Positions 47,983 to 51,422 of a DNA stretch of 64,000 bases are shown one piece after another. Every line of letters starts with the position of its first letter. The stretch's first letter is position 1. This DNA is from Flavivirga abyssicola (GTDB lineage Bacteria; Bacteroidota; Bacteroidia; Flavobacteriales; Flavobacteriaceae). The stretch lies in assembly GCF_030540775.2 (NCBI RefSeq), contig NZ_CP141266.1, positions 855,001-919,000 of the forward strand, read 5' to 3'. The position numbers were made by a program, and so were the translations under genes. The notes beneath the pieces are model-generated. The model did not search any database and was not told the origin of the DNA. It saw nothing but the letters and a program-made list of their open reading frames with translations.

Positions 47983-48001
47983 TCGCAAAGGCGCAAAGTT
48001 T
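47983..48001 (-). repeat. Inverted end copy of the GxxExxY-flanking repeat
   Basis: Reads AAACTTTGCGCCTTTGCGA on the minus strand. The same sequence, with or without a short insert (TTCGCG or TTAACA), begins each unit at 48405, 48591 and 48778 on the plus strand. This inverted copy lies on the other side of the GxxExxY gene, in the 34-base gap before GSCFA. Confidence 0.75.
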
Positions 48002-48007
48002 GCCCTA

Positions 48008-48403
48008 TTATAAACCATTAACTATTCTGGTTATTCCTGTCTTTATTAAAGGGCTATTAAAATTAATTAGTAATCCAAGTTTTAAGCCTGATAATTTTAG
48101 ATATGTTAATAATTGCTTCGGATGAACTGGATGAATTTCCTGTACCGATTTTATCTCAATAATCACTTTATTTTCAACAATTAAATCAGTTCTAAATCCT
48201 AAATCTAGTTTTTTATTTTTCCAAATAACCGGTAATTGCTTTTGACGCTCTACTTTAAACCCTTTTTCAGTTAATTCAGAAAACAAAACTTCTTCATAAA
48301 CAGACTCTAGTAAACCTGGACCTAAATTAACATGTATATGATAACAGCAATCAACTATTTTTGTTGCTAAATAATTCTCAAAAAGCTGTTCTTGTTCACC
48401 CAT
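48008..48403 (-). CDS. GxxExxY protein (PD-(D/E)XK nuclease-like)
   Basis: A 131-residue protein. GLLESVY at residues 30-36 is the motif that names the family (TIGR04256, PF13366). LGFRTDLIVENKVIIEIKS gives Asp73 and Glu83-x-Lys85, which with Glu33 match the PD-(D/E)XK nuclease core. No activity has been established to my knowledge. The gene is bordered by inverted copies of a short GC-richer repeat: 7 bases after its stop (47983-48001) and one base before its start (48405 onward). This suggests a mobile cassette or a protein linked to the repeat. No -7 element was seen. Confidence 0.9.
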   Translation of the reverse strand: MGEQEQLFENYLATKIVDCCYHIHVNLGPGLLESVYEEVLFSELTEKGFKVERQKQLPVIWKNKKLDLGFRTDLIVENKVIIEIKSVQEIHPVHPKQLLTYLKLSGLKLGLLINFNSPLIKTGITRIVNGL

Positions 48404-48404
48404 A

Positions 48405-48806
48405 AAACTTTGCGCCTTAACACCTTTGCGAGGTCAGTTCAAATAATCTTTAGCCTTTATTAATGACTATGTGATGTCTCAATCGTGCCTCATTTCAACA
48501 TGACAACAAGATTCTATTTGTATTCCGAGCCATTTCGACAAAAGGAGAAATCACATAATCAAGTACAACCCAATTACTATAAAAACCCCTAAACTTTGCG
48601 TCTTCGCGCCTTTGCGAGATCAGCTCAAATAACCCTTAGCCTTTTTATTAATGACTCCGTGATGTCTCAACCGTACCTCATTTCAACATGACAACGAGAT
48701 TCTATTCGTATTCCGAGCCATTTCGACAAAAGGAGAAATCACATAATCAAGCACAACCCAATTACTATAAAACCCCTAAACTTTGCGCCTTCGCGCCTTT
48801 GCGAGA
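48405..48806. repeat. 186/187-bp tandem repeat, two full copies and a partial third
   Basis: Copy A 48405-48590, copy B 48591-48777, partial copy C 48778-48806. Copies A and B are near-identical over their whole length. Each starts AAACTTTGCG...CCTTTGCGAG and contains a hairpin (GTGATGTCTC 48471-48480 / GAGAAATCAC 48545-48554 in copy A). Copy C runs exactly to the alaS stop codon, and copy A starts one base before the GxxExxY start. There is no coding frame. The whole gap between the two genes is made of this repeat. Confidence 0.85.
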
Positions 48807-51422
48807 TTAATTCACAAAATCCTTCGCCTTCTCTAAAGCCTCATCAATCCCATCTGGATTCTTACCACCTGCTGTTGCAAAAAATGGTTGTCCACCACCA
48901 CCGCCTTGGATAAACTTTCCAAGTTCTCTAACAACTTGTCCCGCATTCAATGCTTTACTTGCGACCAATTCTTTTGAAATATAACAAGATAACAAGGCCT
49001 TTCCTTTTTGCTCAGTTCCAAATAACAGGAATAAATTATCAAACTGACTTCCTAATTCGAAAGCAACATCTTTTATTCCACCTGCATCCAAATCTACTTT
49101 CTTTGCTAAAAACTGAATACCATTAATATCTTGTAATTCACTTTTTAGTGCTCCTTTTATACTTTTAGCCTTGTCTTTTAAGAGTGATTCTATTTGCTTT
49201 TTAAGATTCGTATTTTCTTCTTGTAAGTTTTGTAACGCCTTTACAGGTTCTTTTGCATTATTAAGCAAATCTTTCATTTCAAAATAAGCCCGATTATTTT
49301 CAAAATAGAAATCCTTAACGGCATCATTGGTAATTGCTTCAATACGGCGAATTCCTGCCGCTACTGCTCCTTCCGATATTATTTTAAAATGCCAAATATC
49401 TGCTGTATTTTTTACGTGTGTTCCTCCACAAAGCTCAATAGATTGACCAAAGCGAATAGCCCGAACTGTATCTCCGTACTTCTCACCAAATAAACTCATA
49501 GCGCCATCTGCTATAGCCTCTTCTTTAGAAATATTCCGTTTTTCTATTAAAGGTAATTTCCCTGATATTCTAGCATTCACAAAGTTTTCAACATCTCGCA
49601 ATTCTTCGATAGTTAGTTTGGAAAAATGAGAAAAATCAAAACGTAAATACTTTGAGTGTACCGCACTTCCTTTTTGTTCTACATGCGTCCCTAAAACTTC
49701 TCTTAAAGCTTGATGTAATAAATGTGTTGCAGTATGGTTACATTCTGTTCTGTAACGTTGCTTAGAGTCTACAACTGCTTTAAACGTTTCTTCAATATGC
49801 TTTGGTAAATTTTTAGCAAAATGAATAATAACATTGTTTTCTTTCTTAGTATCTAAAATATAGATAACATCACCATGTGCATCTTCTAAATATCCTTTAT
49901 CTCCTACTTGCCCACCTCCTTCAGGATAGAATGGAGTGATATTAAATACCAATTGATACATTTCCCCGTCTTTTTTAGAAACCACTTTTCTATATCGGGT
50001 TAATTTAACATCGGCTTCGAGCGTATCATACCCTACAAACTCTTCCTCTTGATCATCAAATAAAACGGTCCAATCGTCCGTTGACATTTCGCTAGCGGCA
50101 CGTGAGCGATTCTTTTGCTTTTGAAGTTCAGCATCAAAACCTTTTTCATCAAGTTTTAATTTTTTTTCACTTAAAATAAGCGCTGTTAAATCTATTGGAA
50201 AGCCATAAGTATCATATAACTCGAAAGCTTTTTCACCTGATACCGTATCGCCTTTCGTTTCCTCAACAATTCTGTTTAGTAATACCAATCCTTGATCCAG
50301 GGTTCTTAAAAATGATTGCTCCTCTTCTTTAATAACATTCTCAATAAGTTGTTTTTGAGCCTTCAATTCAGGAAAAGCCCCCCCCATTTTCTTACTCAAA
50401 ATATCAACTAACCTATAAATGAATGCTTCTTTTTTCCCAAGGAATGTAAATCCATAGCGCACTGCTCGTCGCAGAATTCTACGAATAACATAACCTGCTC
50501 CGTTATTACTAGGTAGTTGTCCGTCTGCTATAGAAAATGCCACAGCCCTAACATGGTCTGCTATAACTCGAATGGCAACATCTGCTTCTTCCAGCTTACC
50601 GTACTTCTTCTTAGTAATCGTTTCTATTTCTCTAATTAAAGGTGTAAATACATCTGTATCATAATTAGATTGCACACCTTGCAATACCATACACAAACGC
50701 TCAAAGCCCATACCCGTATCTATATGCTTATCGGGAAGATTCTCTAAACTACCATTTGCTTTTCTGTTATATTGCATGAAAACCAAATTCCAAATTTCTA
50801 CAACTTGTGGATGGTCTTTATTTACTAAATCTTTTCCTGAAATTTTTGCTTTTTCTTCAGCAGAGCGAATATCAACATGTATTTCACTACAAGGGCCACA
50901 AGGTCCCTGTTCTCCCATTTCCCAAAAATTGTCCTTTTTATTTCCTTTTAAGATACGGTCTTCAGAAATGTATTGTTTCCAGAAATCATAAGCCTCTGTA
51001 TCCATTGGAAGCTTATCTGCATCATCACTTCCTTCAAAAACAGTCACGTATAATATCTCTTTATCAATACCATAAACTTCTGTTAATAGTTCCCAAGCCC
51101 ATGCAATAGCTTCTTTTTTAAAGTAGTCTCCAAAACTCCAGTTACCAAGCATTTCAAAAAGTGTATGGTGGTAGGTATCATAACCAACTTCTTCTAAATC
51201 GTTATGTTTTCCTGAAACACGTAAACATTTTTGAGAATCAGAAATACGGTTATTCTTTGGCTGTGCATTTCCTAAAAAATACTCTTTAAAAGGTGCCATT
51301 CCTGAATTTACAAACATTAATGTTGGATCATCCTTTAAAACCATAGGTGCAGATGGTACTATACTATGTTTCTTCTCTTCAAAAAAACTTAAAAACTTTG
51401 ACCGTATATCTTGTGACTTCAT
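48807..51422 (-). CDS. alaS: Alanyl-tRNA synthetase
   Basis: An 871-residue class II synthetase. Catalytic core at 1-240 ([32 protein letters not shown]). Middle tRNA-recognition domain includes [36 protein letters not shown]. Editing domain has [11 protein letters not shown] and CGGTHVKNT (zinc-binding His/Cys). Oligomerisation and C-Ala domain follow, ending [16 protein letters not shown]. All expected motifs are present and the length is normal. Its last bases abut a tandem repeat. A possible minus-strand -7 element (TATTTTTG, 51620-51627) would give a leader of about 190 bases. Confidence 0.98.

Follow-up and report, generated by a model that had tools for sequence, protein, structure and literature searches.

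The window analysed here, a stretch of 64,000 nucleotides from Flavivirga abyssicola, contains a small gene of the GxxExxY family enclosed by copies of a short repeat, and the question that it raises is what ties the gene to its repeats. The initial annotation, made from the letters alone, had offered two answers: either the cassette is mobile, or the GxxExxY protein maintains the repeat.

The gene and its repeats in the window

The GxxExxY gene (48008..48403, minus strand) encodes a PD-(D/E)XK nuclease-like protein of 131 amino acids and is located between alaS and a GSCFA gene, not in an rRNA gene. No CRISPR or helicase gene is found among the open reading frames that adjoin it in the window. 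The repeat is composed of 7-nt units, CGCNRAG, with a period of 8 nt. The sequence AAACTTTGCG..CCTTTGCGA is present in three direct copies of three units each (48405-48431, 48591-48617 and 48778-48804). A shorter copy of two units is inverted (47983-48001), and the gene lies between it and the direct copies, as had been proposed. The upstream array (48405..48431, on the minus strand, which is the one reading CGCAAAG) adjoins the start codon at a distance of 1 bp, as first described; its outer and inner CGCAAAG units are intact, while the middle unit has diverged. An inverted-repeat search placed the downstream copy (47983..48001, plus strand) between the GxxExxY and GSCFA genes, 6 bp from the gene end and not 7 as first described.

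The gap between the gene and alaS is a tandem array (48405..48807, no strand assigned) with units of 187/188 bp and one triad in each, again in line with the earlier description. Tandem Repeats Finder returned it as the top of its 18 rows, with a period of 188, 2.2 copies, 91% matches and a score of 674, and the 133-nt cores of the units are 94% identical. One triad opens the second unit (48591..48617, minus strand). The last (48778..48804, minus strand) had been thought to touch the alaS stop codon (48807-48809) and in fact ends 2 bp from it. With up to three mismatches, CTTTGCGNCTTTGCG occurs eight times in the window, compared to an expectation of 2.7 and a count of eight in one of 100 shuffles, and seven of these matches fall within 47983-48804. 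The tandem-array score, the shuffles and the comparison of flanks across loci described below led us to reject a chance origin of the repeat. The TTATGTGATTTCTCCTTTTGTCGAAATG..GTCATGTCGAAATGAGGCACGATTGAGACATCAC stretch of the 187/188-bp unit (48456-48588 and 48644-48776) also fills a gene-less gap in the related genome G019 (L150), where triads are lacking, and looks like another dispersed flavobacterial repeat.

The protein matches TIGR04256 (GxxExxY) at 3.7e-44, with 149.8 bits against a curated cut-off of 35, which makes it a family member, and PF13366 (PDDEXK_3) at 5e-41, with 140.2 bits against a cut-off of 22. The latter is its only Pfam match, and neither a HuH nor a Y1 transposase domain was detected. 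Glu33, Asp73, Glu83 and Lys85, singled out beforehand as the PD-(D/E)XK residues, do not vary in alignments of 27 and of 62 relatives. Gly28, Gly30, Glu33 and Tyr36 are invariant in aligned relatives as well, and Gln97 and Tyr101 are conserved at 90% or more in the 62-sequence alignment. An AlphaFold2 model of the protein has a pLDDT of 94 and finds restriction-endonuclease-like folds among its best structural matches, with one Foldseek match at E ≤ 0.001. A profile search (A3) gave no sequence relative of solved structure at E ≤ 1. Rpn-type nucleases and TnsA are not among the matches listed, an absence that is no evidence in itself. Both the sequence and the modelled fold are those of the PD-(D/E)XK superfamily, and nuclease activity is predicted.

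Repeats and GxxExxY genes in other genomes

We compared 30 GxxExxY loci from the 41 carriers among 199 Flavobacteriaceae genomes, together with 80 loci from named genomes, the best among 576 confirmed relatives. The latter are mostly MAGs, and their titles name Bacteroidota, Cyanobacteria, Acidobacteria, Planctomycetes, Verrucomicrobia, Chloroflexi, Geobacter and other groups. Both samples lean towards well-conserved copies because reading was confined to the 30 best-scoring loci of each family search and to the best 80 of these relatives. In the family samples each genus is represented by about one genome, and the named and other sets may overlap in genomes besides the one that yielded L021 and L037, two loci of the same contig of which L037 was dropped before counting.

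Most GxxExxY flanks carry short periodic arrays that follow a common grammar in differing letters, with units such as CGCAAAG, CGCAGAG, CACAGAG, CGCAACG, CGCCAAG, CGCAGATT and CACGAATT. After removal of loci with short or N-rich flanks or an ORF below 300 nt, 97 of 109 could be scored for inverted similarity between the two 150-nt flanks. The median was 29, compared to 16 for control ORFs of the same loci (n = 309, p = 1.6e-28) and 17 when flanks were swapped between loci (n = 959, p = 3.6e-25). The similarity is modest in many cases, with 62 of the 97 loci not above the 99th percentile of the controls. Some loci have direct repeats in place of inverted ones, and others, L030, L053 and L056 among them, display neither inverted nor direct similarity. 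Three or more copies of a 7-mer (at most one mismatch) within 48 nt are found in 45/58 and 111/151 GxxExxY flanks and in 8/38 and 172/580 controls. Two of the four top-scoring control ORFs resemble four-helix-bundle proteins by sequence. Two outcomes had been named in advance as counting against the association, repeats that are not enriched near GxxExxY genes elsewhere and a gene that is always present without repeats. Neither was seen: inverted repeats bracket GxxExxY genes across phyla, and the motif is enriched in carriers, as detailed below.

The type of repeat follows the type of protein. In 3303 locus pairs with unrelated outer flanks, taken from 96 of the 109 loci, repeat similarity correlates with protein identity (rho = 0.42, a value reached in none of 300 label permutations), compared to a rho of 0.08 for control windows in the outer flanks, about 700-800 nt away. 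The median repeat score is 26 for pairs with 60-70% protein identity and falls to 18, the background value, below 35%. In a pair from Nostoc (L048) and a Desulfobacteraceae MAG (L049), proteins that are 70% identical accompany a repeat score of 50. That the repeat type follows the nuclease type in many bacteria suggests that the protein acts on these repeats, but such co-variation is equally expected if gene and repeats are inherited as a passive cassette.

Solo copies of the repeat provide a further link. The strict motif CGCRAAGNCGCRAAG has 80 matches in the 199 genomes, compared to nine for the reversed motif, and 68 of the 80 are located in the 41 GxxExxY carriers. Treating genomes as independent, we found it in 15/41 carriers and 10/158 non-carriers (p = 3.6e-6). 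As many as 52 of the 68 carrier copies lie more than 1 kb from the GxxExxY gene, and such solo copies alone occur in 14/41 carriers and 10/158 other genomes (p = 1.4e-5, genomes again taken as independent). The ten non-carriers with the strict motif speak against a pairing of gene and repeat, as does genome G074, which has 22 loose-motif matches without any GxxExxY match and only a weak match to Y1_Tnp; its copies may reflect a lost gene or another author.

Y1 transposases of the RAYT/IS200 type were considered as the true authors of the repeats. Y1_Tnp was detected in 73 of the 199 genomes. In a logistic model of motif presence on GxxExxY, genome size and Y1_Tnp, in which genomes are treated as independent, GxxExxY has an odds ratio of 7.0 (p = 9e-5), compared to 1.2 (p = 0.69) for Y1_Tnp. 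This value, and the fact that the genome richest in doublets, G027, is a carrier without a Y1_Tnp match, led us to reject Y1 transposases as authors. Among Y1_Tnp-positive genomes the motif is present in 13/30 carriers and 2/43 non-carriers (p = 8e-5), and among Y1_Tnp-negative ones in 2/11, one of them G027, and 8/115 (p = 0.21, not significant). Since the association is significant only in the positive stratum, Y1_Tnp may be a helper.

Twelve motif places were retrieved from G027. Ten of these are doublet-like (four complete, six diverged) and two are single triads. In a doublet, a loop of about 12 nt separates three reversed units from three forward units, with unit spacings of 9,8 and 8,9. 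The doublets are gene-less and their surroundings look unrelated by eye, and the GxxExxY gene of this genome (L289) is flanked by a doublet both upstream and downstream. Established at the level of sequence are the inverted repeats around the gene, the way in which repeat and protein vary together, the excess of solo repeats in carriers and the dispersed doublets.

Inspected by eye, the genome of the window has three tandem duplications bounded by triads. Besides the window array, there is a gene-less array at 3.563 Mb, in which every unit measures about 117 bp and opens with a triad, and one at 4.524 Mb in which a unit of about 208 bp, including the 3' end of the neighbouring ORF, is repeated between triads. 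By the same inspection, genomes G203 and G069 contain gene-less units that are arranged in tandem and end in inverted triads on both sides. At three other loci of the window genome (L183, L184 and L187), CGCAAAG triads adjoin arrays of the ACTGAATACTGGATACTG type, a kind that also accompanies four-helix-bundle genes, which gives the impression of sites common to several repeat classes.

Occupied sites, exchanged cassettes and other protein families

Relatives were examined at two sites. Eleven of the twelve species of the genus have a GxxExxY gene between alaS and GSCFA, intact in six and broken in five. In the twelfth, G019, the site is a 154-bp gap that contains neither the gene nor the repeats. 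The six intact copies have a mean dN/dS of 0.03 over 15 pairs, with dS near saturation in some, which indicates purifying selection at the sequence level.

The second site is the gap between map and a methyltransferase gene, where sister species have different cassettes. It is occupied in five species by a GxxExxY gene of type A with CGCAGAG/CACAGAG repeats, in six (one of them decayed) by type B with CACGAATT repeats, and in one by another gene. The flanks of this site are 94.4% and 93.8% identical between G000 (type A) and G204 (type B), and the exchange therefore involved gene and repeats together. To the right of type B, G200 and G204 retain a remnant resembling the last unit or right end of type A, and in G199 a more diverged remnant beside type B is probably also type-A-like. 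Among the 28 loci outside the genus with the most similar methyltransferase, the gap holds a GxxExxY gene in four, is no longer than 27 bp in nine and contains other sequence in 15. It measures 2-9 bp in five near genera. The empty sites are too diverged in sequence from the occupied ones to reveal target-site duplications. By coordinates, at least 18 of the 199 genomes have a GxxExxY gene in this gap, which marks it as a hot spot. In G203 (L161/L225), where the gap measures 929 bp, a decayed second copy lies upstream of the intact one.

Other small protein families have the same layout. Four-helix-bundle genes (TIGR02436) occur in 89 of 120 genomes, and those of L117-L146 have periodic inverted repeats on both sides that are rich in AT (AACCAACAACC, TACTGAATACTG, GTTAAGAAGTTAAAAAG); the comparison that brought out this layout used 28/30, 69/79 and 28/30 loci of its three sets. 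Several of them share one recurrent gap before a gene starting MKTAYIVKAYRTAVGKAP, which we take to be fadA-like. GIY-YIG singletons of Flavobacteriaceae (L229-L258) adjoin the palindromic repeats TCGACTNCGCTCGA, CCTGAACTTGTTTCAGGA and CCTGCGAATGCAGGAATC, and DUF559 singletons (L259-L288) adjoin CTCCCC..GGGGAG palindromes; 26/30 and 17/30 loci, respectively, were used after truncated loci and large proteins had been dropped. In a comparison of all four families (101 of 103 loci used), the flank nearest in repeat similarity belongs to the same protein family in 81 of 101 loci, compared to 33 for outer flanks and about 26 by chance, and 32 of the 34 locus pairs with a repeat score of 36 or more fall within one family. 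The class of repeat is therefore tied to the protein family, which on sequence grounds favours a connection of each repeat with its protein over a common outside author. The layout of the four-helix-bundle genes, whose proteins are not known as nucleases, shows in turn that a nuclease is not required everywhere and that such repeats may have other partners, a point against the pairing proposed below. The initial annotation had missed this recurrence of one layout in unrelated small families, as it had the differences in repeat sequence between GxxExxY lineages.

A probable repeat-nuclease pair and its alternatives

We consider it fairly probable that GxxExxY supplies the protein of a repeat-nuclease pair, which resembles a REPtron in organisation while its enzyme and its repeats are unrelated to those of the REPtron. 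The gene, usually present once per type, would stand between inverted arrays of its cognate repeat, each with two to four 7-nt units at a spacing of 8-10 nt. The PD-(D/E)XK protein would recognise the array, perhaps with one subunit per unit, or a fold-back that the array forms, and nick or cut there. Repair of the breaks could then duplicate triads together with neighbouring DNA, giving tandem arrays, spread solo triads and symmetric doublets, and occasionally copy the complete cassette, gene and repeats together, to another site, strain or phylum or swap it there. The fold and the association lead us to infer that the factor binding and cutting the repeats is the GxxExxY protein and no other, and that the repeats may spread when these cuts are repaired. 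Triad-bounded tandem duplications, a cassette swap and gap-sized empty sites at one locus, and genes under purifying selection or in decay can be read directly from the genomes compared.

Instead, the cassette might be a minimal self-mobile element of about 450-500 bp, with GxxExxY as transposase or homing nuclease and the gene-less copies as non-autonomous derivatives. Its terminal inverted repeats, the patchy presence of the gene (41/199 Flavobacteriaceae genomes), the replaced cassettes and gap-sized empty sites between map and the methyltransferase gene, the units of G203 and G069 that have both ends but no gene, and the sharing of a repeat by similar proteins across phyla would all agree with this, and a plasmid copy (L313) and a viral-contig copy (L309) likewise have inverted ends. 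Recent self-transposition was nevertheless rejected. Among 20 GxxExxY copies in five multi-copy genomes, 30 of 31 paralogue pairs are only 29-61% identical and each copy has its own repeat, as expected of lineages kept apart and not of fresh copies; the remaining pair is 86% identical and has one broken member. The alaS-site copy, whole or broken, occurs in 11 of 12 species. Phages and plasmids were also rejected as main carriers, with no match in 50,697 phage records, eight in 72,556 plasmid records and four confirmed viral contigs out of 110 pattern matches. On one viral contig (L312), a GxxExxY-like gene lies beside arrays of a further repeat type, CATTTGTTTCATTTGATGA. We therefore regard self-mobility as unlikely. 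Of the two answers given initially, the pairing of repeat and protein is favoured over a self-mobile cassette, in view of the diverged paralogues and of the alaS-site copies in 11 of 12 species; gap-sized empty sites and swapped cassettes do exist, and the functional half of that answer is drawn from association.

The association might also be passive, the repeats spreading by slippage, recombination or another enzyme and the gene being tolerated cargo with an unrelated role, for example in defence or repair. This would fit the repeat-bracketed genes of the three unrelated families, the motif in ten non-carriers and the loss of a significant motif-gene link where Y1_Tnp is missing. However, a repeat class that is specific to the family and, within GxxExxY, to the protein subtype is difficult to reconcile with mere cargo, as are solo copies enriched in carriers and a Y1_Tnp term that adds nothing beside GxxExxY, and we hold passive association to be rather improbable. 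An RNA-level device, in which the inverted arrays serve as terminators or as an mRNA panhandle that regulates or protects the small gene, like the stem of an rRNA intervening sequence, appears very improbable. The arrays do directly adjoin the gene, and the Coxiella 23S intervening sequence, as described in PMC4990558, has terminal inverted repeats that form a stem and enclose a small ORF. Yet in orthologues (for example G208, by eye) the degenerate position varies independently on the two sides, unlike what maintenance of a stem would produce, and solo copies, distant doublets and tandem duplication of neighbouring DNA would be left unexplained.

A wider form of the repeat-nuclease reading, which we hold to be somewhat less likely than not, is that GxxExxY is one of several unrelated small proteins, at least GxxExxY, the S23/Avd-like four-helix bundle, GIY-YIG singletons and DUF559 singletons, each recognising and propagating its own class of intergenic repeat. 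If so, much dispersed repeat DNA of Bacteroidota and other phyla would be written by single-gene systems of which RAYT/REP was the first described.

Almost nothing has been published on GxxExxY (TIGR04256/PF13366), a widespread nuclease-like family. A search of the open-access literature found no paper linking it to repeats; the two matches to the name are a passage on RT-adjacent genes (PMC8934634) and a listing (PMC12085832). Pairing with a specific repeat would supply a testable substrate, since each locus names its own candidate recognition sequence, and the subtypes with their distinct repeats form a natural series for how a PD-(D/E)XK protein reads DNA. GxxExxY may also be the author of short periodic intergenic repeats that have been described without a mechanism, such as the TAACTGA repeats. 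Should the four-family pattern hold, REP/RAYT would be one case of small single-gene systems that write and maintain dispersed repeats, with a bearing on genome plasticity, hot spots of tandem duplication and the travel of genes between phyla.

Compared to known systems, GxxExxY differs from the Cas4 and RecB-like PD-(D/E)XK nucleases and from Hjc resolvases in being, in the window, a stand-alone gene for a protein of 131 amino acids. Cas4 contains a cysteine iron-sulphur cluster, and there is no cysteine among the invariant or nearly invariant GxxExxY columns of the 27- and 62-sequence alignments. Terminal inverted repeats and gene-less units with both ends recall insertion sequences and MITEs, but GxxExxY has no known transposase domain, its ends are internally periodic, and the five multi-copy genomes contain no set of near-identical copies. 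The 23S rRNA intervening sequences, as presented in PMC4990558, similarly have a small S23/four-helix-bundle ORF between inverted repeats and are called selfish, with a transposition origin under discussion; the window cassette, in contrast, lies between protein genes, encodes another fold and has periodic repeats that vary with the protein type. Heptamer units in intergenic repeats are shared with the TAACTGA repeats of Beggiatoaceae, Cyanobacteria and some Bacteroidetes. The passages of PMC4679880 on these repeats suggest horizontal transmission by a mechanism that is not evident and propose a role in translational regulation, for which proteins of the S1, Csp or Csr families are the candidates to bind the repeats, and unlike the case of GxxExxY they name no repeat-bracketed gene.

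The closest likeness is to the REPtron (TnpAREP/RAYT with REP/BIME/REPIN). In the sections of PMC8266576 that describe it, a nuclease gene adjoins its cognate dispersed repeats, which form inverse pairs and tandem copies; the gene is mostly single copy, its presence is often correlated with repeat abundance, and its mobility is not evidenced. The GxxExxY cassette resembles this description in layout, copy number, correlation with repeat abundance and inverted doublets. It differs in that its enzyme is of the PD-(D/E)XK type and not HuH, in its arrays of 7-nt units without a GTAG tag (no GTAG is present in the window arrays, and solo units are CGCNRAG arrays by eye), and in the swap of whole cassettes at one site. 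With a non-HuH enzyme and repeats free of GTAG, the GxxExxY system is not a REPtron; the two are alike in layout only.
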